From: a virus
Direction: 5' to 3' (one strand)
Virus record (IMG/VR): IMGVR_UViG_3300037585_000132
Coordinates: 1 to 20,175 of that record
DNA: 20,175 bases
Within the stretch, counting starts at the first letter, position 1. Each line of letters starts with the position of its first letter. Position numbers and translations under genes: made by a program. Below, in pieces: positions 1-10,342 of the stretch. The notes below the pieces were generated by a model, which was not told where the DNA came from, did no database searches, and saw only the letters and a list, made by a program, of their open reading frames with translations.

Positions 1-30
1 ACACAGATATTCCGTAACGGAAAAAAATAA
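1..30 (+). CDS. 3' end of an upstream late gene (partial)
   Basis: Frame 1 is open from the window edge and ends TAA at 28-30, giving the tail ...TQIFRNGKK. The stop overlaps the next ATG at 30 in a TAATG arrangement, which is the usual junction in this operon. Only nine residues are visible, so no function can be given. Confidence 0.5.
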   Translation, partial: TQIFRNGKK

Positions 31-266
31 TGTCTGATAACAGTTTTGAACTGATAAACGAATACAAAGAACAAGTTCGTATATTAAAGCAAGAAGTAGC
101 TGAATTACAAGACGCAGGTAAGTCTAAGGATGCAGCTAATAAAAGATGTTTACAAAAATTAGAACATGCTAATAAAGATTTAGAAGACGCACAAGAAAAA
201 ATAAAAAAAATGGAGGAAAAAAATGATCAGAAAGATAAAGGAAAAGATCAAGAATCTTTGGGATAA
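30..266 (+). CDS. Small charged coiled-coil protein, unknown function
   Basis: A 78-residue protein, almost entirely helical and charged (Lys/Glu/Gln), with heptad-like spacing from about residue 10 to 65 and a Lys/Asp-rich tail. There is no signal peptide, membrane segment or cysteine pair. It is coupled to the upstream gene by a TAATG overlap and its 3' end contains the ribosome site and start of the next small gene at 223. A short coiled-coil protein in a late operon could be a scaffold or assembly helper, but nothing in the sequence establishes this and I do not recognise the family. Confidence 0.7.
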   Translation: MSDNSFELINEYKEQVRILKQEVAELQDAGKSKDAANKRCLQKLEHANKDLEDAQEKIKKMEEKNDQKDKGKDQESLG

Positions 267-303
267 ATTTGTTGTCTGGCTATTTTCAGGTTACGATAAG
301 TGA
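223..303 (+). CDS. 26-residue amphipathic membrane-associated microprotein
   Basis: An ATG at 223 follows a strong ribosome site (GGAGG at 212-216, six bases before the start) lying inside the end of the preceding gene. The product begins MIRKIKEKIKNLWDK, a strongly basic amphipathic helix, followed by a short hydrophobic stretch VVWLF and a polar end. The stop TGA at 301-303 overlaps the GTG start of the next gene at 300. The ribosome site and both overlaps argue for translation despite the length. The shape resembles small membrane-active phage peptides, which is only a structural analogy. Function unknown. Confidence 0.55.
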   Translation: MIRKIKEKIKNLWDKFVVWLFSGYDK

Positions 304-524
304 AATTTGGGCTAGTTCTTTTTTTATGCTCATTTGTAGCAGAAGAATGTTTGCCGCCCCATTATTTTCATGCACAATTTCAAGATGAATATACTTGTTT
401 AATGATGGGTTATGAACAATCTATTTTAAAAATGGAAGAAATAGGTAGAGAAGAAATTAATAAACATAGTATGTATATAAAATTTGTATGTGCTGAAATA
501 AAACCATCAGAAGAAGATACTTAA
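300..524 (+). CDS. Small exported cysteine-containing protein
   Basis: A 74-residue product from a GTG start that overlaps the preceding TGA (GTGA). Residues 4-14 are hydrophobic (GLVLFLCSFVA), consistent with a short signal sequence or anchor; C10 and C17 lie near it but neither sits in a good lipobox. The mature part has C33 and C64 flanking a charged helix. It resembles the product of 1712-1927: an aromatic/acidic run before a Cys-Leu, a Tyr five or six residues later, and a basic/hydrophobic strand ending in Cys. A disulfide in the periplasm is plausible. No family recognised. Confidence 0.65.
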   Translation: MKFGLVLFLCSFVAEECLPPHYFHAQFQDEYTCLMMGYEQSILKMEEIGREEINKHSMYIKFVCAEIKPSEEDT

Positions 525-526
525 TT

Positions 527-1201
527 ATGAGAACCCTCGCAATATTATTTATGTTATTATTTACATCCTTTGCACATGCAGGAAGCACCCAATCAAATGT
601 ATCTGGGTCTAACACTGCTATTGAAGGGGGATATACATCAAGTGCTACAACAACTTATCAGTCTGGTTCTAGCTCAAATAGTACTACGAGTAACACAACA
701 AATTCTAATGTAAGGTCATCACCTCCATCAGCATCAGCACCATCTTATAATTCTATGACACAAGATGTTTGTAGTACAGGTGCTTCAATGGGAATACAGA
801 CTTTTGGAATAGGTGTTAGTGGTGGAAAACATTTTATAGATAAAAATTGTGAAAGATTAAAACTAGCTAGAATACTTAATGACTTTGGTATGAAGGTAGC
901 AGCAGTAGCAATACTATGTCAAGATGAAAGAGTATTTGAATCTATGATTCAAGCAGGTACTCCCTGTCCTATTGATGGTAAAATTGGTAAAGAAGCTGAA
1001 GCTCTTTGGTCTAAATATGATAATGAAAGACCAGACTATGACATATATGTTAAACGTATGAAACAAAGAGAAAAGAAGGAAAAAGAATTAGAAAAAATTA
1101 GACTTAAAGAAGAAGCTAAAATGACTAAAGAATTTGATAAGGTAGATAAAGAAATTAAAATAGAAAAACTAAAACCTATAGACTGGGAATCACCTAAATA
1201 A
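527..1201 (+). CDS. Exported Ser/Thr/Asn-rich protein with a basic helical C-terminus
   Basis: A 224-residue protein with a clear Sec signal peptide: MRTLAILFMLLFTSFAHA with a likely cut after AHA at residue 18. Residues 19-75 are a low-complexity Ser/Thr/Asn/Gly linker. Residues about 80-170 form a globular part with four cysteines (in VCSTG, NCERL, LCQDE, PCPID), which suits an oxidised periplasmic fold. Residues about 175-224 are a Lys/Glu-rich helix. It starts two bases after the preceding stop and its TAA overlaps the next ATG at 1201. A signal peptide on a phage late gene implies action at the host envelope (lysis, exclusion or assembly), but the family is unknown to me. Confidence 0.75.
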   Translation: MRTLAILFMLLFTSFAHAGSTQSNVSGSNTAIEGGYTSSATTTYQSGSSSNSTTSNTTNSNVRSSPPSASAPSYNSMTQDVCSTGASMGIQTFGIGVSGGKHFIDKNCERLKLARILNDFGMKVAAVAILCQDERVFESMIQAGTPCPIDGKIGKEAEALWSKYDNERPDYDIYVKRMKQREKKEKELEKIRLKEEAKMTKEFDKVDKEIKIEKLKPIDWESPK

Positions 1202-1329
1202 TGCCAAAACCAGTAAGAAAATGGGTAGTAAAATTAAGAATGTGGTGGGCAGATATTAGAGGACATCATGGTAAACGTTGGGACTATGAACCTGGTGATT
1301 ACTATATGGGTCGTAAAAGAAGAAAATGA
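1201..1329 (+). CDS. Small basic Trp-rich protein (42 residues)
   Basis: The ATG at 1201 shares a base with the preceding TAA, and the TGA at 1327-1329 overlaps the next ATG at 1326. The product starts MPKPVRKWVVKLRMWWADIR and ends GRKRRK; it is strongly basic with four tryptophans and no membrane-spanning length. It exactly fills the space between two well-supported genes, and both junctions are overlap-coupled, so I accept it as a gene. Function unknown. Confidence 0.65.
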   Translation: MPKPVRKWVVKLRMWWADIRGHHGKRWDYEPGDYYMGRKRRK

Positions 1330-1712
1330 AAATAAGCGAGAATACGGCAGTATCTATGCCGATGAAAAATTTAATTAGTATTATTGCTGCTGTTGCAGTA
1401 GGAGTATGGGCATACTTTGGTATAGTAGAAACTTTAAATAAACATAGTACAACTCTAGAGTTAATGCAAAAAGATTTAGAAGCTAACTCAGAATTTAGAA
1501 TTAAATACCCACGTGGAGAACTTGGTCAGTCATCTGGGGAGGCGGAGCTCTTTATGTTGGTGGAACATATGGCAGGGTTAATAGAGTCTATGGATGAAGA
1601 GTTAAAAGGTATGAGAAATAATAAAATTAATATAGATTTTTTAAAAGAACAAGTATCAAAATTACAAGCTGATGTAGAAAAAATAATTAGAAATGGCAAT
1701 GGAGAACACTAA
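1326..1712 (+). CDS. Single-pass membrane protein with a coiled-coil domain
   Basis: A 128-residue product. Residues about 15-35 (LISIIAAVAVGVWAYFGIV) form one membrane helix near the N-terminus. The rest is polar with heptad-like helices at about 38-60 and 95-122. This N-in/C-out layout with a coiled coil outside the membrane is shared with the product of 3627-3908. It resembles the arrangement of inner-membrane spanins or small phage membrane anchors, but no lipoprotein partner with a convincing lipobox is seen beside it. Coupled by ATGA to the gene before and TAATG to the one after. Holin/spanin assignment is speculative. Confidence 0.7.
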   Translation: MKISENTAVSMPMKNLISIIAAVAVGVWAYFGIVETLNKHSTTLELMQKDLEANSEFRIKYPRGELGQSSGEAELFMLVEHMAGLIESMDEELKGMRNNKINIDFLKEQVSKLQADVEKIIRNGNGEH

Positions 1713-1927
1713 TGATAGAAATGGTATTTGCTTTATTACTCTTACAAGATCATAAAATTATAGAACATCGTTATCATGAGTCATTATCAAAATGTCTTAA
1801 AGCTAAACGTTATGCTATGAAGGACAAAAGTCCTGGTGATAGAGTTGTTTATAAATGCATTCAATCTAAAGCAAACATTGAAGTATATATGGGAGAGAAA
1901 AAAATACTCTCTTTAATATTAGAATGA
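1712..1927 (+). CDS. Small exported cysteine-pair protein, possible paralogue of the 300-524 product
   Basis: A 71-residue protein with a short hydrophobic start (MIEMVFALLLL) that may be a signal segment or anchor, followed by C28 and C49 in SKCLKAKRY and VYKCIQ. The same pattern (aromatic/acidic run, Cys-Leu, Tyr, strand ending in Cys) occurs in the 300-524 product. It starts in a TAATG overlap with the preceding gene and its TGA overlaps the ATG at 1924. Function unknown; a disulfide-stabilised periplasmic mini-protein is the reading I would test. Confidence 0.65.
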   Translation: MIEMVFALLLLQDHKIIEHRYHESLSKCLKAKRYAMKDKSPGDRVVYKCIQSKANIEVYMGEKKILSLILE

Positions 1928-2037
1928 TTTGGTTAATTATATTTATAGGAGTTATGGCTTATGCGGTTTATCGTATTAACACTTTTGCTGATGACGTTAA
2001 TCCATACAACTTCAGCAGAAGAAATAACGACAGGTAA
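1924..2037 (+). CDS. Possible 37-residue single-pass membrane protein
   Basis: The ATG at 1924 overlaps the previous TGA (ATGA). Residues 2-16 are hydrophobic (IWLIIFIGVMAYAVY), then the product turns polar and ends YNFSRRNNDR. Its last 77 bases overlap the signal peptide of the exported protein starting at 1961 in another frame, and it has no strong ribosome site of its own. The GGAG at 1948-1951 probably serves 1961. The membrane-type composition and coupled start favour a real gene; the long overlap counts against it. Confidence 0.4.
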   Translation: MIWLIIFIGVMAYAVYRINTFADDVNPYNFSRRNNDR

Positions 2038-3634
2038 TTTATTACCTAATGGTACTGGTTCTGCATCTAATTTGCAATCAGTAGATAATACAATACCAAA
2101 TGTACAATCAAGTTGTTCATCATTTACTTCAGTTAATACTACATGTACAAATTCAAATTGGAACTATCAAGAAGTAGAAATAGGTAGCACATCATCAGGT
2201 ACAGGTACTTTAAACTACACAGGTAATTTAGTAGATGTAACAACAGGTAATGAAACTACTACCCAAGTAATGTTAGATAATGGTATTACTTTAGATTCTA
2301 CAACTGTTGTACAAAATTGTGAATGGTCTGGATCATCACATCAATGTGGTCAAGCACAATCAGGTCGAGATACATTTAAAACAACAGTTAAGATATTAGA
2401 TTCTGATGGTAATGTGTTGTCTGAAATAGACCAAATAAGAAATACAGATTCAGGTTATTATAGTAATGCAGACAAGTATACAGATCAAGTTATATATAAT
2501 GGCACAGGATCAAATCAATTTGATTGGACTTGGACAGGAATAGATGGTGATTCTACTCCAGTTGATTTAGGTGGACCTAATTTGTTAGGTGCTAAACTAA
2601 CTATGACTTATGATAACACGGTTATAGCAAATGAAATTGTTGAAGAAATAAGTGAAATATTTGAAGAATTACAAGAAGAAATATTTGAAGAATTTACATT
2701 TGAATATATTGAAGAAATGTTTGAAGAGTTTACACTTATAGCACCACCTATGGAAGAAGTTATGGAAGAAGAATTTGAAGAGATGACATTTGAACCCATG
2801 CTTACTTTAATAGAAGAAATGCCAATGGAAGAAGAATTTTTTGAAGAAGAAATGCTTATAGAAGAAATGCCAATGGAAGAAGAAATAACTACATCTTTTT
2901 TTACTATGATGCCACCACCACAAGAAGAGGAAATATATGAGGAAACGGAAGAGATCATCGCAAGTTTCTTACCTATGGTTCTTAAAGAAGAGGAGACATT
3001 TACAGAAGAAGAAGAATTTGTCGAAGAAGAACCAGTAATGGAAGAAGAAATTGTACAAGAAAAACCATCAAGATTTACAGCTGCACCTAAAGAAAAAGAA
3101 AAAGAAGAAGTAATAGAGGAAGAAACTGTAGAAGAGGAGCCAAAACAAATAGCACAAAAACCAAATGAAGAAAAAGAAACAATTAAAGAAGAAAAACCCA
3201 CTAGCGAAACTTCTAAAAAGTCCGCAGTTCCAACAAAAAAAATTACCAAACAAAAGAAAGTACAGTCGAAAGGAAATAAAACAACAAATGTTAAGTCACA
3301 GTCAAGACTTGTAAATTTAGAAAAAGTTATGGATAAAGTAGATAAAGATATAAAAGATATATCAAAAAATTTACAGATAAAAAATATAATTAAGATAGGT
3401 GCTATGACTAATGATCAAGCATCTCTTGATATTTATGATGTACCCTTTTATAAAAGTGAAGATATTTATTTAGATCAATTACAAATACAAGATTTAAGAC
3501 AAGTATATGCTGATACTACTCTAAATAATTATATAGCAAATGATCCTGTATTTATTATGCAGGATAAATTAAATAAAATAAATATAGAAAAACAAAGAAT
3601 ATTAATAGAACTGGAGCAATTAAAAAATGGATAA
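1961..3634 (+). CDS. Exported protein with a beta-rich N-domain, long Glu-rich tract and Lys-rich/coiled C-terminus
   Basis: A 557-residue product with a Sec signal peptide (MRFIVLTLLLMTLIHTTSA, cut near residue 19) and GGAG nine bases before the start. Residues about 20-225 are Thr/Ser/Gly/Asn-rich, look all-beta, and hold four cysteines (52, 62, 120, 129); a jelly-roll or lectin-like domain is possible but unproven. Residues about 226-415 are extremely acidic, full of EE/EEE and Met/Phe/Pro, with a 27-base direct repeat at 2810-2836 and 2858-2884. A Lys-rich patch follows at about 419-445, then a helical end with likely coiled coil. It overlaps the next gene by eight bases. Secretion plus strong charge segregation suggests an extended periplasmic or surface protein. 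I do not recognise the family. Confidence 0.8.
   Translation: MRFIVLTLLLMTLIHTTSAEEITTGNLLPNGTGSASNLQSVDNTIPNVQSSCSSFTSVNTTCTNSNWNYQEVEIGSTSSGTGTLNYTGNLVDVTTGNETTTQVMLDNGITLDSTTVVQNCEWSGSSHQCGQAQSGRDTFKTTVKILDSDGNVLSEIDQIRNTDSGYYSNADKYTDQVIYNGTGSNQFDWTWTGIDGDSTPVDLGGPNLLGAKLTMTYDNTVIANEIVEEISEIFEELQEEIFEEFTFEYIEEMFEEFTLIAPPMEEVMEEEFEEMTFEPMLTLIEEMPMEEEFFEEEMLIEEMPMEEEITTSFFTMMPPPQEEEIYEETEEIIASFLPMVLKEEETFTEEEEFVEEEPVMEEEIVQEKPSRFTAAPKEKEKEEVIEEETVEEEPKQIAQKPNEEKETIKEEKPTSETSKKSAVPTKKITKQKKVQSKGNKTTNVKSQSRLVNLEKVMDKVDKDIKDISKNLQIKNIIKIGAMTNDQASLDIYDVPFYKSEDIYLDQLQIQDLRQVYADTTLNNYIANDPVFIMQDKLNKINIEKQRILIELEQLKNG
2810..2884 (+). repeat. 27-base direct repeat pair inside the Glu-rich tract
   Basis: Identical 27-base copies at 2810-2836 and 2858-2884 are offset by 48 bases (16 codons), so the frame is kept. 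Each encodes IEEMPMEEE. The surrounding tract (about 2630-3200) has many degenerate gaagaa-rich units, consistent with growth by slippage or unequal recombination. Confidence 0.8.
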
Positions 3635-3908
3635 AATAAAAAATCAATTAGCTGGTGTTGCAGCTTTACTAGGTGTCATTGCCGCAATAGGTGGTGGATT
3701 TGTTAAGTATGGTGAAGTTATGACTAAACTTGACTCAATAGAAACTGTTGATTACTCAGCACAGATAGCTGTATTAGAAGAAAAAGTTGATGCTTTAAGT
3801 GGAGATCATGGTCATACAAAAATGTTAGTTAATGAAAAGGAAATACAATTACTTAAAGTGCAGATAGAAGAAATTAAAGTTAAATCTTCTAACCCTCTAG
3901 CAAATTAA
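3627..3908 (+). CDS. Small single-pass membrane protein with coiled coil, holin/spanin-like layout
   Basis: A 93-residue product. Residues about 8-28 form a Gly/Ala-rich membrane helix (LAGVAALLGVIAAIGGGFV), followed by two short coiled-coil stretches at about 44-58 and 68-86. It overlaps the preceding secreted-protein gene by eight bases and ends in a TAATG junction with the next gene. The layout matches the 1326-1712 product, suggesting related anchors serving the two exported proteins. A holin-type role is possible because an endolysin lies downstream in the same operon, but nothing proves this. Confidence 0.7.
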   Translation: MDKIKNQLAGVAALLGVIAAIGGGFVKYGEVMTKLDSIETVDYSAQIAVLEEKVDALSGDHGHTKMLVNEKEIQLLKVQIEEIKVKSSNPLAN

Positions 3909-4561
3909 TGTATTTAAATGCTAATGTACCTCCTATAGAATGCTTTGTAAGGGGTAATTATTTAAGAGATCAAAAAGATTCTCACGATAAATACTTTGAG
4001 TGTGTAATATTTGGTTTTAGTTCTATACCTAAACAAGTTCCTTTGTTTCATTACATGATGACAGATGGTGGTATATGGTGGAGAGCACCTATATCTGCAT
4101 TTTGTAAAAAACCAGATGTAAAAGAATTACCTTTAAATGAATTAATGTTATGGGATTCATTTAGTTATAATGTAAGTGTTACAAAATTTTATCAATTAGA
4201 TGGTTGTAAAATGATATACACATCTAGAAGAAAAAAACAAGTTGAAGGTAAATACTTATTTACTATTGACTGGTGTGCTGGTGATTATAATGAATTAGAT
4301 TTTGGTTATGCAGAAAAACCAGATCAACATAAATGTGGACATGTAATAGAATTAGATGATGGTAACTATGCAATTCAACCCAACAATAGACTAAGGATAT
4401 TTGATCCTTCTATGGCAGCTGACCCCAGCAAACCTCTTATCCATAGATTAGTTAATACTAGAATCTGGTCCGTAGAAGATACTTCTAAATGGATTACAGA
4501 TGAAGTACAGGAAGGAAGCTATGATTATGAATATAAGGAGATAAAAGATGGCAGTAAATAA
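3908..4561 (+). CDS. Conserved-looking late protein of unknown function (217 residues)
   Basis: A 217-residue soluble protein with no signal peptide or membrane segment, rich in Tyr, Trp and Asp. Stretches such as ECFVRGNYLRD, GGIWWRAPISAFC, LPLNELMLWDSFSY and FTIDWCAGDYNELDFGY look like a compact, well-conserved fold. It starts in a TAATG overlap with the membrane-protein gene and ends inside the next small basic gene (overlap 4548-4561). It sits between envelope-directed proteins and a cluster of basic proteins in the late operon, so a virion or assembly role is plausible. I cannot name the family. Confidence 0.75.
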   Translation: MYLNANVPPIECFVRGNYLRDQKDSHDKYFECVIFGFSSIPKQVPLFHYMMTDGGIWWRAPISAFCKKPDVKELPLNELMLWDSFSYNVSVTKFYQLDGCKMIYTSRRKKQVEGKYLFTIDWCAGDYNELDFGYAEKPDQHKCGHVIELDDGNYAIQPNNRLRIFDPSMAADPSKPLIHRLVNTRIWSVEDTSKWITDEVQEGSYDYEYKEIKDGSK

Positions 4562-4715
4562 AGCAGGAAACTATACAAAACCTGGAATGAGAAAAAGAAT
4601 CTTTAGTAGAATTAAAGCACAGGCTTCTCATGGCACAGGTGCTGGCAAATGGTCAGCAAGAAAAGCACAGGCACTGGCTAAAGCATATAAAAAAGCTGGT
4701 GGAGGATATAAGTAA
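4548..4715 (+). CDS. Small basic protein, marine-phage type (55 residues)
   Basis: The ATG at 4548 follows a good ribosome site (AGGAG at 4536-4540). The product begins MAVNKAGNYTKPGMRKRIF, contains GAGKWSARKAQALAKAYKKA and ends GGGYK. It is strongly basic with almost no acidic residues. Proteins of this pattern (TKP..R...F.RIK, WSARKAQ, KKAGGGY) are familiar to me from marine phage genomes; I recall them as uncharacterised. The gene overlaps the preceding one by 14 bases and shares a base with the next start (TAATG). Nucleic-acid binding is an inference from charge alone. Confidence 0.75.
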   Translation: MAVNKAGNYTKPGMRKRIFSRIKAQASHGTGAGKWSARKAQALAKAYKKAGGGYK

Positions 4716-4831
4716 TGATAAATTTTATTAAAAAAATATTAGGAATAGATGTTATAGAATATAATATTAGATTATTACAAAGAAAAAATTATTGGAAGGA
4801 AAAATATGGCACTAACAAAAAGTCAACGTAG
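4715..4831 (+). CDS. Small basic protein (38 residues), unknown
   Basis: The ATG at 4715 shares a base with the preceding TAA. The product begins MINFIKKILGIDVIEYNIRLL and ends in a basic tail (KYGTNKKST). It overlaps the next gene by 26 bases. An amphipathic helix followed by a Trp/Lys segment is a common small-phage-protein pattern. Coupling and lack of any alternative gene in 4716-4805 support it. Function unknown. Confidence 0.5.
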   Translation: MINFIKKILGIDVIEYNIRLLQRKNYWKEKYGTNKKST

Positions 4832-5054
4832 TTTAAAAGCATGGGGAAAACAAAAATGGAGAACCAAATCTGGCAAAAAATCTTCGGTGACTGGAGAAAG
4901 ATATTTACCAGAGAAAGCTATCAAGAGCTTATCATCTGCGGAGTATGCGGCAACGACAAAAGCAAAACGCCAAGGAACAAAGAAGGGCAAACAGTTTGTG
5001 AAACAACCGAAAGGGATTGCAAAAAAAGTAAAACAATATAGGAGATTTAGTTAA
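4806..5054 (+). CDS. Basic protein resembling the DUF5872 family
   Basis: An 82-residue product beginning MALTKSQRSLKAWGKQKWR, then TKSGKKSS, GERYLPEKAIKSLSSAEYAATT and a Lys-rich C-terminus with KQFVKQPKGIAKKVKQYR. From memory this pattern matches Pfam DUF5872, a small uncharacterised domain common in marine phages and some giant viruses; no search was run. A ribosome site (GGAAGGA) lies just upstream. About a third of residues are Lys or Arg, so DNA or RNA contact is likely. The gene shares a base with the next start at 5054. A second frame open inside it (4841-5041) has biased composition and is not a gene. Confidence 0.8.
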   Translation: MALTKSQRSLKAWGKQKWRTKSGKKSSVTGERYLPEKAIKSLSSAEYAATTKAKRQGTKKGKQFVKQPKGIAKKVKQYRRFS

Positions 5055-5182
5055 TGTACGGAATGAAAAAAACTAATATGAAAAAGAAACCAACTGCTAC
5101 GAAGAAAAAATATAAAGGATTTTCTAAATTACCAGAAGGTGTTCAAAAAAAAATAAACAAAAAACTAGCAAAGAAAGTATAA
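5054..5182 (+). CDS. Small Lys-rich protein (42 residues)
   Basis: The ATG at 5054 overlaps the preceding TAA and follows GGAG at 5041-5044. The product has the pattern MYGMKKTNMKKKP...KYKGFSKLPEGVQKKINKKLAKKV. The C-terminal half (FSKLPE.VQ.KI.KKLAKK) looks conserved and recurs, as I remember it, in marine phage late operons as an uncharacterised protein. It ends in a TAATG overlap with 5182. Strong positive charge and position among similar genes suggest packaging or nucleic-acid binding; unproven. Confidence 0.7.
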   Translation: MYGMKKTNMKKKPTATKKKYKGFSKLPEGVQKKINKKLAKKV

Positions 5183-5433
5183 TGGCAAAGACAGCAGCAT
5201 GGCAACGTAAAGAAGGTAAAAACCCCTCTGGTGGTTTAAATGCTAAAGGTCGTGCATCATACAATCGTGCAACTGGAGGCAATTTAAAAGCACCTAGTAA
5301 AAAAGTTGGTAATCCTAGACGAGCTAGTTTTTGTGCTCGTATGAGAGGAATGAAAAAAAAATTAACTTCTAAAAAAACTGCTAATGACCCTAATTCAAGA
5401 ATTAATAAAGCACTTCGTGCTTGGAATTGTTAG
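5182..5433 (+). CDS. Basic conserved phage protein (DUF6321-like)
   Basis: An 83-residue product with the conserved pattern AWQRKEGKNPSGGLNAKGR, GGNLKAP, RRASFCARMRGM and a final SRINKALRAWNC. I recall this signature as Pfam DUF6321, widespread in marine phages and of unknown function; not checked by search. Two cysteines (in SFCARM and the last residue) are part of the pattern. It is coupled by TAATG to the gene before and its 3' end overlaps the start region of the endolysin gene. It is the last member of the basic-protein run and likely co-expressed with virion genes. Confidence 0.8.
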   Translation: MAKTAAWQRKEGKNPSGGLNAKGRASYNRATGGNLKAPSKKVGNPRRASFCARMRGMKKKLTSKKTANDPNSRINKALRAWNC

Positions 5434-5986
5434 CTTAATATTATTACACGGAACTATGGATCAATATGGAAAACATAGAGATTTCTTACAAAAAATAAGA
5501 AATGTTAAATCTGAATATAGCCAAGAATCATTTGAGGCTAATGTTCCTGATGATTTTATTTTAACAATAGCTACAGCTGAAACAGGCAACTTTAATTTTA
5601 AAAATGCTGATACTGCTAAAAGAGCAAATAATTTTTTTGGAATGCAGGCTATTGGTGATGAATCATTTATATTATCCCAAGACCCAAATAAAAAAGCTAA
5701 AGTTAGAACATTTAATAGTGCAGAAGATAGTATAAAAGGATTTTTAGAACTTATGAAAACTGGATCTAGTTATCAAGGTATAAGAGAATCAATAGCAAAG
5801 GGAGATAACACAATAAATTATTTTGATTCTTTAGGTGAATACGCAGAAAAAAAAAATTATCCAGAATTTTTAAAAGATATATATATTACTAGAATTTTAG
5901 ATTTTATGAATCCAAAAGATGATACAGGTAAACTAATGTTACCAAATAAAAAACCTATGAAATCTCAAATGAATACCCTAAAATAA
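5384..5986 (+). CDS. Glucosaminidase/muramidase-like endolysin with an N-terminal membrane segment
   Basis: Up to 200 residues. Residues about 58-180 resemble the Bax/FlgJ-type glucosaminidase (lysozyme-like) fold: FILTIATAETGNF with a candidate catalytic E66, then NNFFGMQ (82-88), VRTFNSAEDSIKGFLELM, and YAEKKNYPEFLKDIY near the end. It would cleave peptidoglycan glycan strands during lysis. Residues 11-22 (FVLGIVSLILLH) are hydrophobic, giving a possible signal anchor. The start is uncertain: ATG 5384 and GTG 5417 overlap the preceding gene, while ATG 5456 would remove the hydrophobic segment; none has a strong ribosome site. Last gene before the rightward terminator. Fold assignment is by motif only. 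Confidence 0.75.
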   Translation: MTLIQELIKHFVLGIVSLILLHGTMDQYGKHRDFLQKIRNVKSEYSQESFEANVPDDFILTIATAETGNFNFKNADTAKRANNFFGMQAIGDESFILSQDPNKKAKVRTFNSAEDSIKGFLELMKTGSSYQGIRESIAKGDNTINYFDSLGEYAEKKNYPEFLKDIYITRILDFMNPKDDTGKLMLPNKKPMKSQMNTLK

Positions 5987-6010
5987 AAAGGGGAGCCATA
6001 AAGACTCCCC
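5981..6010 (-). terminator. Rho-independent terminator for the leftward operon
   Basis: Read on the minus strand, a perfect 6-bp GC-rich stem (GGGGAG 6010-6005 with CTCCCC 5995-5990, 9-base loop) is followed by TTTTTATTT. It lies just past the last leftward gene (stop at 6088) and overlaps the end of the rightward endolysin gene by six bases. Read on the plus strand the same hairpin lacks a T-tract, so orientation is clear. Confidence 0.75.
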
Positions 6011-6020
6011 CAGGCAACAG

Positions 6021-6059
6021 AAGACATCTAGAGAACCACCTCTAGGTGTCTTTTTTTTT
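6021..6059 (+). terminator. Strong rho-independent terminator for the rightward operon
   Basis: A 13-bp stem (6021-6033 with 6040-6052, one G-T wobble) closes a 6-base loop AACCAC and runs into nine Ts (6051-6059). It lies 35 bases after the endolysin stop. It lacks a T-tract in the minus direction and so should act mainly on rightward transcripts. The rest of 5987-6087 holds only this pair of hairpins and a short AT-rich spacer. Confidence 0.9.
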
Positions 6060-6087
6060 GGCTAGTATAAACTAACCAAAATTTATA

Positions 6088-6669
6088 TTATGTCTTCACA
6101 AATGATGGAAGACCTAACATTGGTCTTTTATCAAACCTATTGCTTTCAGCAAAAGGACCATTTACATGATTATAATGAAGAAATACTTGTCCACAAATAT
6201 TACCTTTAAACGGTTCTCTCCAATGTTCTAATTCGCAACCACTATATACTAACATATCTCCCACATCAAGCATTACTTCTGTGCCTTCTATAAATATAGA
6301 CCACGGGTCACCACCTAAATGTATGGTTGTAGATATCTCACAACTAGGTCTATCTTTGTGTTTATGTAGTATATCACCGTGTTTGTATATTCGAGCATAT
6401 GAGTATGTAGGTATTAATTCAAGACCTGTTTCTTTTTGCATTTTAGGTAATACTTTCATTAACAAAGTTTCCATTGCAGGATCAGCATAAATTGAATAAG
6501 TGTTTGGAACTTGCTGGTCAGACCAAGTACCTAGTAAACTCGTGTCATACGTAATATTATTTTGATACATAAATTGAACTGCATCACGTTTAAGTAAAAA
6601 ATAATTAAATATAAAATTAGCTAATTCATAACTAATTGCATTTTTTATTACTTGGTATTTATTAAACAT
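6088..6669 (-). CDS. 2-oxoglutarate/Fe(II)-dependent oxygenase, prolyl-4-hydroxylase type
   Basis: A 193-residue cupin-type dioxygenase. The iron triad is visible as H104-x-D106 (in LHKHKDRPSCE) and H149 (CELEHWREPFKG); R151 or K155 could bind 2-oxoglutarate. The strand TTIHLGGDPWSIFI and GDMLVYSGCELEHW are typical of a phage/cyanophage branch of this superfamily in which EHWREPF and QVFLHY are conserved. Such enzymes hydroxylate an unactivated carbon using O2 and 2-oxoglutarate; the substrate cannot be told from sequence. It is the last gene of the leftward operon, sharing one base with the upstream oxygenase (TAATG), and lies before the minus-strand terminator. Confidence 0.85.
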   Translation of the reverse strand: MFNKYQVIKNAISYELANFIFNYFLLKRDAVQFMYQNNITYDTSLLGTWSDQQVPNTYSIYADPAMETLLMKVLPKMQKETGLELIPTYSYARIYKHGDILHKHKDRPSCEISTTIHLGGDPWSIFIEGTEVMLDVGDMLVYSGCELEHWREPFKGNICGQVFLHYNHVNGPFAESNRFDKRPMLGLPSFVKT

Positions 6670-7250
6670 TAAAATAATATAAAGTTAAAAGACACAGATA
6701 TTCTTATGTCATTGCTTTTATTAGGTTCTACTTTATGCCACATCCAAGAAGGAAACATTATTAATCTTCCAGGAATTGGGTCATAATAAGCTTCTCGCCA
6801 CAACTCTCTAGGTAATTTTTCTTTTTTTCTTGTGGGCATACAGTGTTGTGCTCCAGGTCTTGGATCTATTAAACCTAATCTTCCAGAATTAGGTAACGCT
6901 TTTACATAGTAAACACCAGAAAATAATGAGTTAGGATGTATATGACTATTATTATACCCACCAGGTGGATTAATATTAGCCCACATGTTCCCTAGTCTAG
7001 GCTCCATATCCAAATACTCTTCTTGTATAATTTTATTTTGCATTTGAAATAATTCTTTAATTAAAGGTTCATATTCTTTTTTATGATTCATGTCAGTTTG
7101 TGAATGCCAGCCATTCATATTAGTTTTGTTTACACCTTTATCTTGATTACTCCATTCAATTATTTGCTTTTCTAAATAAGGATTTAGTTCATTAGCATTG
7201 GGTAAATCTTTAATATATATAATAGTTGGAAAAAAATATTCTTTAATCAT
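6669..7250 (-). CDS. Putative 2OG-Fe(II) oxygenase (TIGR02466/PF13759-like)
   Basis: A 193-residue protein. NINPPGGYNNSHIHPNS followed by LFSGVYYVKALP, then GLIDPRPG, and PGRLIMFPSWMWHKVEPN with RISVSFNF, is the pattern of the TIGR02466 family (from memory PF13759). Candidate ligands are H103 and/or H105 (HIH, not HxD) and H172, with R183 for 2-oxoglutarate. A substrate is not predictable. It overlaps the upstream oxygenase gene by four bases and shares one base with the next one downstream. It is clearly homologous in its core to the 7825-8493 product (compare SHIHPNSLFSG with IHIHQGSLFTG), so the two may descend from a duplication or separate capture of one family. Confidence 0.8.
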   Translation of the reverse strand: MIKEYFFPTIIYIKDLPNANELNPYLEKQIIEWSNQDKGVNKTNMNGWHSQTDMNHKKEYEPLIKELFQMQNKIIQEEYLDMEPRLGNMWANINPPGGYNNSHIHPNSLFSGVYYVKALPNSGRLGLIDPRPGAQHCMPTRKKEKLPRELWREAYYDPIPGRLIMFPSWMWHKVEPNKSNDIRISVSFNFILF

Positions 7251-7828
7251 TTAAATGGTGTGCCTCCAAACCACATAACAAGTGATTGTCTTACTCCTCG
7301 TCTAACAGGATTAACTCTATGATTTAAAAATGATGCAAAACAAATTGCATGACCTTGTTCAAGTTTTGCGTATTTACCAGGAGCCATTAATTCTAAGTCC
7401 CCTCCTTCAAATTGATTTTCAGGAGACAATAGTAATGTCATAGATATTTTTCTTACAGGTGGTTCATTTTGCATATTAACATCTGTGTCCATATGCCAAT
7501 CATAAAAACCACCTTCAGGATATTCTGTAAACTGTGCATTTTCTGTTATTTGTATATCCCCAAATCCAAAATGATTTCTATTTGCTTTTTGTATAAAAAT
7601 ATTAATATCACGATACATATGTTCCATCTCTTTAAATGGAATCCAAGATATTGTTGTGACTCTTTTTTTTGTATCTAATCCACCACCTGGTTTTCCCATA
7701 CCAACTTGTGCTTTTTGTGGTGGTTGTCTTCTACCACATTCAATAATTTGTCTACATTGCTCGGGTGTAAATAATGGTGTTGTTGTTTGTATAATCCAGC
7801 TTTTCCATTTAGGTTCTGTTATTATCAT
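7247..7828 (-). CDS. PKHD-type 2OG-Fe(II) hydroxylase (PiuC/YbiX-like)
   Basis: A 193-residue protein with a complete prolyl-4-hydroxylase-type active site: H112-x-D114 (FYDWHMDTDV), distal H170 (SFLNHRVNPV) and R180 ten residues later (RGVRQSLVMW) for the 2-oxoglutarate carboxylate. RKISMTLLLSP, FEGGDLEL and GHAICFASFLNHRV are hallmarks of the PKHD branch that includes bacterial PiuC/YbiX. The bacterial relatives are about 225 residues, so this is a compact version lacking the C-terminal extension. Substrate unknown. Four-base overlaps (ATGA) with both neighbouring oxygenases show translational coupling. Confidence in the fold and chemistry is high. Confidence 0.92.
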   Translation of the reverse strand: MIITEPKWKSWIIQTTTPLFTPEQCRQIIECGRRQPPQKAQVGMGKPGGGLDTKKRVTTISWIPFKEMEHMYRDINIFIQKANRNHFGFGDIQITENAQFTEYPEGGFYDWHMDTDVNMQNEPPVRKISMTLLLSPENQFEGGDLELMAPGKYAKLEQGHAICFASFLNHRVNPVRRGVRQSLVMWFGGTPFK

Positions 7829-8493
7829 TCTGCACTCCTATTTTTAATAGGGTCATAATTTACATCCATATTACATGCTAGAGTTCTTCTAAAACCATTT
7901 CCATTAAAAGGATAAACACAATGTCTCATGTCATATGGAAATACATAAAAAGCTTTTTCTTTTATAATAGGACCATAGTCTGAATTACAAAATTGACCTG
8001 ATGAATTTCCTATTATTTGTAATTGTCCATTCATAGGTTTTTCAACTGCGGAATATTCAACGCCCATGTTTTGTGGCAATTTTAAAATCATAACAGACGA
8101 TAATCCAGTAAATAAAGATCCTTGATGAATATGTATTGGATTGTATTCATGTTCTTTCATTTGATTAACCCATATAGAGTTAAGATGCATTTTATAGTTT
8201 TTAATTTTATTCCAATCTAAATAGTGTTTCATAACCATATGAAACCATTGTGTTACAGTCTGTGGTAAAAAATTATGTGGATGCATTTTTTTATTTGGTG
8301 CACCATCAAAAAATAATGAGTGTTCATTTACAATCTTACCTACTAATTGTGGATTAGCTCTAGGTAATTCATCTTTTCTTGTTTCATAAATATGATTAAT
8401 AGTATCATATACATCTAAAGGCACATCATAAATCAAAACAGATTGCCCTAAAAATATACATTTATATTTAATATCAGAATCTAATGTGTTCAT
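7825..8493 (-). CDS. Putative 2OG-Fe(II) oxygenase, divergent TIGR02466-like
   Basis: A 222-residue protein with NPIHIHQGSLFTGLSSVMILKLP (H121, H123), a middle strand region GQLQIIGNSSG, and KAFYVFPYDMRHCVYPF (H191) with FRRTLACNMDV (R202/R203). This reproduces the double-stranded beta-helix order of 2OG-Fe(II) oxygenases with an HxH in place of HxD, as in the 6669-7250 product. It begins inside the end of the sulfotransferase gene (20-base overlap) and ends in an ATGA overlap with the PKHD hydroxylase. Iron dependence is inferred, and loss or change of one ligand is possible. Substrate unknown. Confidence 0.72.
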   Translation of the reverse strand: MNTLDSDIKYKCIFLGQSVLIYDVPLDVYDTINHIYETRKDELPRANPQLVGKIVNEHSLFFDGAPNKKMHPHNFLPQTVTQWFHMVMKHYLDWNKIKNYKMHLNSIWVNQMKEHEYNPIHIHQGSLFTGLSSVMILKLPQNMGVEYSAVEKPMNGQLQIIGNSSGQFCNSDYGPIIKEKAFYVFPYDMRHCVYPFNGNGFRRTLACNMDVNYDPIKNRSAE

Positions 8494-9289
8494 ATTTATC
8501 CTTTATTCTTTGTGGTATTTTTTCTATGTAGGGGTTGTATTCTTTTTTAATTTCTTTTTTAATTTTATGCATATTGTTTCCAACTATGGTATCATCGTAA
8601 GATATACCATTAATATTTATTTGTTGCAAGTTTGTAAATTGGTGTGGGTAATAAGGTATGTTTAAAAAATTATAAACTTTATTTATTTCTTCTCTTGGGT
8701 TTTGCACCAAGTCATCATATTTTATGAAGTGACACATGTTTGGATAATTAAAAGCATTTTTAATTGCTTCTAAATCTTTAGCTATTGCACCTTTTTTATT
8801 CATAATCATAGATAATTTTTCTTCATCATTTTTACAATTATATTTATTAAGAAACGCATCAGGGTTTTCTGTGTACCACTGCATATAAGAAGCTAGCACA
8901 TCCATTAAATCTCTAAGTAATACTACACATTTAAAAGGATGTTTATAATGTTTTTGCATTAATTTAAAATTACCTTTTGTCATTACAGGACCACGATCAA
9001 TAATATATTCTTGTGACCAATGTTTGTAATAATTATCAAACACACTATTTAATACATTATCTAAAGATTTATGATCTGGATAATTTTCAAATACATCTGT
9101 TTTTTTTAATAAAAATACATCTTTCATTATCTCTAAAGTAATAGAATTAGCAGTGCACACAACGTTTGGATTTTGATTTATAATAGATGCAAACAAAGTA
9201 TTACCCGATCTTGGCATTGCAACTAAAAAAAATAATTTTTTATTCTGGTTTTGCCCCAAGTTCGTGTGTAAGTTTATCTTTCTTATCAT
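8474..9289 (-). CDS. PAPS-dependent sulfotransferase family protein
   Basis: A 271-residue protein. The 5'-phosphosulfate-binding loop is LVAMPRSGNTLFASIINQNP (residues 22-41), and the 3'-phosphate site is CVVLLRDLMDVLASYMQW (121-138) with R126 and S134. KYDDLVQNPREEINKVYNFLNI is the usual late helix/strand of the family. It should transfer sulfate from PAPS to a hydroxyl or amine; the acceptor is unknown. The ATG at 9289 overlaps the upstream gene by 50 bases, but the next in-frame ATG (M25) would delete the P-loop strand, so 9289 is preferred. It overlaps the first of four oxygenase genes by 20 bases, suggesting that they are made together. Confidence 0.85.
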   Translation of the reverse strand: MIRKINLHTNLGQNQNKKLFFLVAMPRSGNTLFASIINQNPNVVCTANSITLEIMKDVFLLKKTDVFENYPDHKSLDNVLNSVFDNYYKHWSQEYIIDRGPVMTKGNFKLMQKHYKHPFKCVVLLRDLMDVLASYMQWYTENPDAFLNKYNCKNDEEKLSMIMNKKGAIAKDLEAIKNAFNYPNMCHFIKYDDLVQNPREEINKVYNFLNIPYYPHQFTNLQQININGISYDDTIVGNNMHKIKKEIKKEYNPYIEKIPQRIKDKYEHIRF

Positions 9290-9926
9290 ATTCTAATTGA
9301 CCCAATTCTTTTTTTATTCTTTCAATAGATTGTAATTGACCTAAAACATTAAACACTTCTGGTTGACTTGAACCAGATGTTAAAGTTTCAGCTTTATTTT
9401 TCATTGTTAAATGGTAAGAATGTAATTGATGTGTGTTAACATCTTTAGTATCAAAAGAACCATCATCAAATTTCTTTTTAAATTTAGACCATAACTTTAT
9501 TTCTCTCATTCTATCTCTAGCAACTAATTGCATAGATGCTTTACTATATGTTTTTTCATCTATGTCAATTTGTAATAATTCTTTTTTTAATGGGTCTTCT
9601 TCTTTGTCTAATTTTTCTTGTAATCTTTTTATTTTAACTTCAGCCCTTCTATAATCAAAAGATAAACTCATTAAATTTTCTAAGAATACATTTTGTTCTC
9701 TAACACACTGCCAATATTTAGCAGCTTTAGTTGGATACTTTGCATCATTTAATACAGAAAACTGCATTTCAGTTTCTGTTCTAAACATTTGTTTTTTAGT
9801 CCAAGTATCTCTAAGTTCTTCTGTCATCTTTTTAAACAGAGATACATCCTCTGGCTCCAATATATTATTAAGATTGGGAGCCTCCCTTTCAATTAGTTCT
9901 TTAATATTTCTTTTTTCTTTAGTCAT
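9240..9926 (-). CDS. Helical phage protein, unknown function (228 residues)
   Basis: A soluble, almost fully helical protein. Residues about 47-100 (MFRTETEMQFSVLND, AAKYWQCVREQNVFLENL, LSFDYRRAEVKIKRL) look strongly conserved, followed by a coiled coil to about 150 with RDRMREIKLWSKFKK, then a looser Gln/Ser-rich tail. It starts one base after the preceding stop and its 3' end overlaps the sulfotransferase start by 50 bases. I have an impression of similar uncharacterised proteins in marine phage replication operons, but cannot attach a function. No catalytic motif is seen. Confidence 0.75.
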   Translation of the reverse strand: MTKEKRNIKELIEREAPNLNNILEPEDVSLFKKMTEELRDTWTKKQMFRTETEMQFSVLNDAKYPTKAAKYWQCVREQNVFLENLMSLSFDYRRAEVKIKRLQEKLDKEEDPLKKELLQIDIDEKTYSKASMQLVARDRMREIKLWSKFKKKFDDGSFDTKDVNTHQLHSYHLTMKNKAETLTSGSSQPEVFNVLGQLQSIERIKKELGQLEYDKKDKLTHELGAKPE

Positions 9927-9927
9927 T

Positions 9928-10164
9928 TTATACCTTTTGTATTATTTGTTTTATATCATCTTGCATTTTTTTACCCATAGAATTTGCATGATTAATTATG
10001 GCAGCACATAAGTTAGCTTGATATGGGAAACCTCTTAAAGCATCTCGTATTTTACCAACAGGTTTACCACCATAATCTATTACTATAGCATTATCTTTAT
10101 TTAATCCTATCTTTAATTCAAACAATATTCCAGTGTATTTATCTAGATTATTTTTTTCTTTCAT
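9928..10164 (-). CDS. Small conserved-looking protein (78 residues), unknown
   Basis: The product begins MKEKNNLDKYTGILFELK and contains IVIDYGGKPVGKIRDALRG and YQANLCAAIINHANSMGKKM. I start it at ATG 10164: AAGGAG at 10180-10175 lies ten bases upstream, while an earlier GTG at 10173 is only one base from that site. The ribosome site and start lie inside the end of the upstream gene (overlap 10148-10164). No signal peptide or known motif; a small alpha/beta fold is likely. Function unknown. Confidence 0.7.
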   Translation of the reverse strand: MKEKNNLDKYTGILFELKIGLNKDNAIVIDYGGKPVGKIRDALRGFPYQANLCAAIINHANSMGKKMQDDIKQIIQKV

Positions 10165-10342
10165 CAGACACACTCTCCTTTTGTATATTAACTGGAGTTA
10201 GTGCAGATATAGAATTCATAATCTTAACAACTTCTCCATATGGTCTAGTCATTAAGTATCTCATTATATCCATTAACTGCTCCGAGCTAATCGCATAGGT
10301 TTTTGGTGTTGCCTGTTTTGTTTTGCTTTTATCTTCAGCCAT
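10148..10342 (-). CDS. Small protein (64 residues), unknown
   Basis: A strong ribosome site (AGGAGG seven bases upstream of ATG 10342) supports this start. The N-terminal 15 residues are Lys/Thr-rich and probably disordered. Residues about 17-50 (ISSEQLMDIMRYLMTRPYGEVVKIMNSI) form two helices, and the tail is charged. It resembles small helical adaptor or dimerisation proteins only in outline. It lies between the SSB-tail protein and the 78-residue protein in the leftward operon. Function unknown. Confidence 0.7.
   Translation of the reverse strand: MAEDKSKTKQATPKTYAISSEQLMDIMRYLMTRPYGEVVKIMNSISALTPVNIQKESVSDERKK

Follow-up and report, generated by a model that had tools for sequence, protein, structure and literature searches.

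Results

Layout of the cassette

We analyzed a 20,175-nt stretch of viral DNA (IMG/VR record IMGVR_UViG_3300037585_000132; hereafter, the window) that carries on its minus strand a run of overlapping genes encoding four different predicted 2-oxoglutarate (2OG)–Fe(II) oxygenases (O1 to O4), a sulfotransferase (ST), and a helical protein (G). The first gene is G (9240–9926), followed by ST (8474–9289), O4 (7825–8493), O3 (7247–7828), O2 (6669–7250), and O1 (6088–6669). An earlier annotation made from the DNA letters (the sequence-only reading) had described ST, O4, O3, O2, and O1 as five consecutive genes overlapping by 20, 4, 4, and 1 nt. We reproduce these coordinates and overlaps, all on the minus strand, but G was overlooked; it overlaps ST by 50 nt, making the cassette one of six genes. 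A terminator-like stem-loop on the minus strand (5989–6011) closes the cassette operon, and a second on the plus strand (6019–6054) closes the convergent lysis/late operon. As detailed below, this is a portable, translationally coupled cassette, gained and lost as a block, that comprises four or five different 2OG–Fe(II)-type oxygenases, an optional ST, and the helical G.

Cassette enzymes and the ferrochelatase label

O2 matches PF13759 (3e-28) and TIGR02466 (5e-42), O4 matches PF13759 (1e-8) and gives a profile match to O2, and O3 matches PF13640 (7e-14) and is alike by sequence family to PiuC and prolyl 4-hydroxylase (P4H). The sequence-only reading had assigned HxD...H metal sites to O1 and O3 and HxH...H sites to O2 and O4, correctly so, and these residues are invariant in the relatives: H104/D106/H149 of O1 in 66 of 66 aligned sequences, H103/H105/H172 of O2 in 73 of 73, H112/D114/H170/R180 of O3 in 75 of 75, and H121/H123/H191/R202 of O4 in 76 of 76. 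The HxH...H arrangement is also found in 3bvc, a solved relative of O2, and a predicted 2OG-binding Arg lies ≈10 residues past the distal His in O2 (R183), O3 (R180), and O4 (R202). The metal-site residues of O1 to O4 are intact, so the active-site loss that the same reading had named as counting against it did not occur, and its view of four different 2OG-type oxygenases beside a sulfotransferase holds at the level of predicted families and active sites. It had proposed a profile search of Pfam and TIGRFAM; our search of Pfam and NCBIfam matched O2, O3, O4, and ST, and gave no Pfam match for O1.

O1 belongs to phrog_2954, which carries the label "ferrochelatase." Since a profile–profile comparison of O1 with O3 likewise gave no match, we modeled its structure. 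The model of this 193-residue protein (mean predicted local distance difference test, pLDDT, 86) is a double-stranded β-helix, for which the top Foldseek match is the Pseudomonas putida P4H solved with EF-Tu (E 2.5e-8). The nearest Protein Data Bank (PDB) chains are the P. putida prolyl hydroxylase, PHD2, SnoN, and PiuC-like enzymes, with VIA Z scores of ≈14 to 15 and a root-mean-square deviation of ≈3 over 150 to 170 residues to P4H, PHD2, and SnoN; identity to the protein prolyl hydroxylases that share this fold (P. putida P4H and PHD2) is only ≈12 to 15%. H104, D106, and H149 are also invariant among 14 O1 relatives down to 30% identity. The canonical 2OG-binding Arg position is not evident in O1, which has a near-invariant R93 and an invariant R151 instead, so use of the 2OG cosubstrate by O1 is presumptive. 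Ferrochelatases consist of two Rossmann-like α/β domains in ≈300 residues, which a 193-residue β-helix does not fit, and 14 diverse O1-family members scanned to E 10 gave no match to PF00762 (ferrochelatase). Judged from the model and the invariant residues, O1 is most likely a prolyl-hydroxylase-like 2OG oxygenase, not a ferrochelatase, which would correct an annotation propagated through pelagiphage genomes.

The phrog_2954 family has been interpreted as iron/heme partner genes (PMC9599517, PMC11561400), an account in which O1 would be a ferrochelatase that cooperates with the oxygenases. That account draws on the label in PHROG and GenBank and on Wittmers 2022 (PMC9599517); set against the length of O1, its modeled β-helix, its invariant HxD...H, and the 14 members that fail to match PF00762, we find it scarcely credible. 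Since phrog_2954 is most likely a 2OG oxygenase, the published heme/iron partnership and the seasonal "ferrochelatase" enrichment need rereading. A cellular origin of the family was also considered and set aside: O1 relatives in genome contigs lie mostly on phage-like contigs from metagenome-assembled genomes (MAGs) or single-amplified genomes, and cell-like neighbors occur only in L345. That copy (L345:5980-6693; 55% identity) lies on a Rickettsiales MAG contig beside RecQ-like and HslU-like genes and is possibly cellular.

ST is a 3′-phosphoadenosine-5′-phosphosulfate (PAPS)-type sulfotransferase that scores above cut-off with PF00685/PF13469 (≈2e-12), matches that indicate no substrate; TPST and SULT are matched equally weakly (E ≈3e-4). 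Its PRxGNT motif, R126, and S134 (the 5′-phosphosulfate loop and the 3′-phosphate-binding Arg/Ser) are invariant in 80 sequences. G, an all-helical protein of 228 residues with a weak phrog_1409 match, is modeled as six helices (pLDDT 76), and its best viral Foldseek match is an unnamed protein (E 7e-5). We rejected a functional assignment from structure, as the PDB matches are generic coiled coils with Z ≤11, under the caution level for helical models; a G-like domain within a glycosyltransferase open reading frame (ORF) of AG-345-L05 (E 3e-4) was likewise discounted.

Carrier phage and insertion slot

The window comes from an HMO-2011-type pelagiphage, a type recognized by shared PolA, helicase, primase, and gene order, all found here: its PolA is 90% identical to that of HTVC033P and 41% to that of HMO-2011, and the early operon is syntenic. 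The host is probably SAR11 bacteria. The cassette occupies a slot bordered on one side by a conserved gene that ends the early replication operon (9928–10173, minus strand) and marks this border in HTVC033P, G001, G003, G006, G009, L022, and L455 too, and on the other by a convergent endolysin-like gene (5384–5986, plus strand; PF01832). In a blastn comparison, the near-identical contig L455 shares 98.5% identity with the window over 1–5658, and similarity returns at 9927; the intervening six-gene block (3.9 kb in the window; gain/loss unit, 6028–9927) is replaced by 31 nt, so that exactly these genes are missing. Similarity to L455 ends at 5658, inside the endolysin-like gene, and the 3′ half of that gene was therefore exchanged along with the cassette. 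Among related genomes, the slot is empty in HTVC033P and G003, holds the cassette lacking ST in G006 and G009, and holds it with ST in the window, L022, and L009. In G001, it is filled by one unrelated 747-residue gene on the strand opposite to the cassette (L340:9708-11951), and on this basis we regard the slot as a general insertion site. In the window-type, cassette-bearing contigs L338 and L339, the map shows no lysis gene at the slot. Elsewhere in the window, the gene at 1961–3634 encodes a protein whose long middle part is repetitive and rich in Glu and Met, and the HTVC033P homolog of this protein is annotated as carbohydrate-binding; the antisense ORFs at 2608–3249 and 3068–3253 are by-products of this repeat.

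Conservation of the cassette and variability of ST

Gene order was surveyed in two phage lineages across 160 fetched loci, namely 80 viral contigs retrieved with ST as query (ST-seeded) and 80 loci retrieved with a distant G (G-seeded), the latter sample being independent of ST. The order G-(ST)-O4-(X)-O3-O2-O1 is kept across these loci. In the ST-seeded set, G-ST-O4-O3-O2-O1 runs unbroken to the contig limits, with 67 complete loci and 13 ended by contig ends; G leads the cassette in every locus, and O4 or ST comes next in 80 of 80 G-seeded loci. The additional oxygenase X (PF13640, 1.5e-14) lies between O4 and O3 in 51 of the 78 G-seeded loci that were scored. Order and overlaps are maintained in phage backgrounds with unrelated PolA, and each cassette gene is under purifying selection (median ratio of nonsynonymous to synonymous substitution rates 0.13 to 0.36). 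A chance collection of genes, which the sequence-only reading would have concluded had the five-gene order been absent from related phages, is contradicted by these ratios and by the conserved order in all 80 ST-seeded loci. Its suggestion that the genes are probably made in step gains support as translational coupling, together with that order.

ST is the variable member. Intact ST is present in 18 of the 78 scored G-seeded cassettes and missing from 60, always in one fixed slot, and G, O4, O3, O2, and O1 are retained where it is missing. Across all 80 G-seeded loci, G is followed directly by O4 in 59 and by ST and then O4 in 21, two of these ST genes being truncated remnants (L192 and L195). 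Parsimony gives 13 to 17 changes of ST state (O4 or G trees), a count that is uncertain because only three independent ST-differing pairs sit on strongly supported branches. HTVC023P-type phages carry a related ST at three other positions in the same neighborhood (L088/L159, L163, and L123). With 60 of 78 cassettes lacking ST, serving this enzyme cannot be the main purpose of the hydroxylation. We therefore reject an obligate sequence of hydroxylation then sulfation, and the suggestion of the sequence-only reading that hydroxylation creates the OH groups to be sulfated is not supported. Supply of the PAPS donor by the host is a real constraint on ST: a full-length or strong match to adenosine-5′-phosphosulfate kinase (≥59 bits) occurs in ≈24 of the 147 Pelagibacterales genomes searched, many of them incomplete, and a lenient cut-off passes 117 genomes, mostly on partial P-loop matches. 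The optional ST thus poses the question of whether a given host can supply the sulfate donor.

Pairing of the cassette with adhesin type

Immediately upstream of G, 112 of 128 loci have a kelch-like ORF, a predicted adhesin; the remaining 16 almost all show the window-type early operon at this place. Downstream, the kelch-type loci encode a 718-residue tail ("stabilization") protein related to gp72 of HTVC023P. G occurs with kelch in 113 loci and with a gp63-like protein in none, and 56 loci have the gp63-like protein with an O3-O2-O1 triad and neither G nor kelch. In HTVC023P-type phages, this triad is placed behind glycine-rich proteins and the gp63-like protein; among HMO-2011-like phages, it accompanies glycine-rich gp62/63/64 in HTVC033P, G003, G204, G205, and L421, and genomes with kelch or other adhesins have no local oxygenases. 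HTVC033P and HTVC023P are both grown on Pelagibacter HTCC1062. ST adjoins kelch proteins (phrog_19111) in three unrelated phage records, S-SKS1, AG-345-O18, and AG-345-L05. The kelch label derives from an S-SKS1 match to PF24681 just over the cut-off and from relatives that match PF24681 and a pelagiphage-built profile.

Related clusters carry optional extra genes for other tailoring enzymes (Trp halogenase and methyltransferase-like). A flavin-dependent Trp halogenase (PF04820, E 9e-111 in L118) lies between O3 and O2 in L118:1629-3113 and L164:2662-4149, and a PrnA-like gene lies near the oxygenase run of HTVC008M. The small gp63 of HTVC023P (L083:8401-8919; phrog_7759) accompanies the triad in HTVC033P, HTVC023P, HTVC008M, and S-SM1 and is a possible further partner or substrate. 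Near ST and kelch proteins lie members of DUF6445 (phrog_1644, "minor coat protein"; L086:7381-8001 and L085:729-1349); this may be another oxygenase-like family, since the copy at L086:14261-14746 weakly matches 2OG-FeII_Oxy_5.

Discussion

Because the cassette follows a single type of predicted attachment protein, it may chemically finish that protein. We tentatively propose, as a reading with a reasonable though not the greater chance of being right, that the cassette is a portable module that tailors the kelch-like tail adhesins of the phage that carries it, or a glycan on them. With 2OG, O2, and iron, the oxygenases would hydroxylate adhesin side chains, either on the adhesin as such or on adhesin bound to G; G could serve as adaptor, chaperone, or substrate; and sulfate would be added by ST in hosts that supply PAPS. 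The phage may gain a more stable adhesin, a change in the receptors recognized, or a way around host resistance. We count in favor the order conserved in unrelated-PolA backgrounds, the segregation of adhesin type with oxygenase version, the position of ST beside kelch proteins, the protein prolyl hydroxylases among the nearest folds of O1, and the tailoring enzymes encoded by the extra genes of related clusters. The sequence-only reading had included a phage structural protein among its candidate targets, to which the adhesin pairing lends support, although the target itself remains conjectural.

Several observations weigh against adhesin tailoring. In the window lineage, the cassette ends the early replication operon with no adhesin adjoining, and no window-type contig spans both the cassette slot and the kelch adhesin region. 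The kelch assignment of the pelagiphage adhesins is a chain of similarities with no direct Pfam match. As a sign of tyrosine sulfation, we looked in the adhesins of ST-bearing loci for an excess of Tyr or acidic-Tyr; a strong raw signal was lost under control, with a Tyr content of 2.40 versus 2.27% (p 0.50) within the G-seeded set and a likewise null result for the independent pairs. Co-segregation of adhesin and cassette may also reflect joint transfer, not a relation of enzyme and substrate.

In the window lineage, the block has been relocated to the early operon, a position that could also fit a host target. One such target is the host envelope, where a surface glycan or outer-membrane protein would be modified early, for example, to exclude other phages. 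This is somewhat unlikely in our judgment: ST does lie among glycosyltransferase and sugar-epimerase genes in S-SRM01, near a glycosyltransferase gene in AG-345-L05, and beside cytidylyltransferase and sugar-kinase genes in AG-345-O18, but glycan genes are not regular cassette members, the oxygenase version tracks adhesin type, and other lineages keep the cassette within the tail-gene region with adhesins adjoining. Another possible target is the set of host proteins for translation or regulation; EF-Tu or ribosomal proteins, for instance, could be hydroxylated at prolyl or arginyl residues. The early operon position, the closest Foldseek match of O1 (P. putida P4H with EF-Tu) and the likeness of O3 to PiuC and P4H point this way. 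We consider this quite unlikely, as it leaves unexplained the adhesin-type coupling, ST beside kelch proteins, and the four to five different oxygenases. More improbable still is a metabolic role, in which the enzymes would draw down 2OG, or oxidize and sulfate a small molecule of infection. Such a role was suggested for cyanophages (Sullivan 2010, PMC3037559), and small-molecule tailoring is compatible with halogenase and sulfotransferase chemistry, but drawdown would not require four distinct, conserved enzymes whose genes keep a fixed order, and the cassette has no biosynthetic scaffold gene.

Adhesin tailoring admits a broader and more doubtful form, in which each adhesin type, kelch-like or glycine-rich, would be matched with its own oxygenases, with sulfation optional, yielding receptor-binding proteins that bear multiple hydroxylations and, in some cases, sulfate. 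If so, attachment chemistry would depend on O2, iron, 2OG, and host sulfate activation. Very abundant ocean phages commonly carry the gene families of the cassette, and the adhesin link, if true, would give one direct, testable role to a large group of genes classed as "auxiliary metabolic." A search of a partial literature collection found no work combining kelch, phage tail, marine, and oxygenase.

Pelagiphage oxygenase clusters were already known (PMC9599517, PMC3037559). The "2OG-Fe(II) oxygenase + ferrochelatase" pairs (Wittmers 2022, PMC9599517; phrog61/phrog2954, PMC11561400) have families phrog_61, phrog_81, and phrog_2954 in common with the cassette, and the system of Wittmers 2022 shares the host group and co-located oxygenases, HTVC023P itself having the O3-O2-O1 triad. 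That paper (PMC9599517) describes oxygenases that are nearby, not adjacent, and mentions no sulfotransferase or helical partner, whereas the six genes of the window cassette form one block in strict order, in which ST is optional. The earlier remark that four oxygenases in a row are unusual was overstated: five oxygenase genes lie side by side in HTVC008M, and S-SM1 has a long cluster beside a tail-fiber gene. These clusters resemble the cassette in having several adjacent 2OG/PhyH genes, an O1-type "ferrochelatase" included, and lie near tail-fiber, neck, and sheath genes, but they differ in gene content and order and lack G and ST. Cyanophage S-SKS1 carries the arrangement kelch, G-like, kelch, ST, kelch, with an ST of 28.5% identity and a G-like phrog_1409 protein; unlike in the window, its ST stands outside an oxygenase operon, and its G-like protein is matched weakly (E 5e-5). 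The present analysis newly describes a fixed six-gene unit with a clean empty site and a slot in which ST is optional, pairs this unit with adhesin type, and reassigns phrog_2954.

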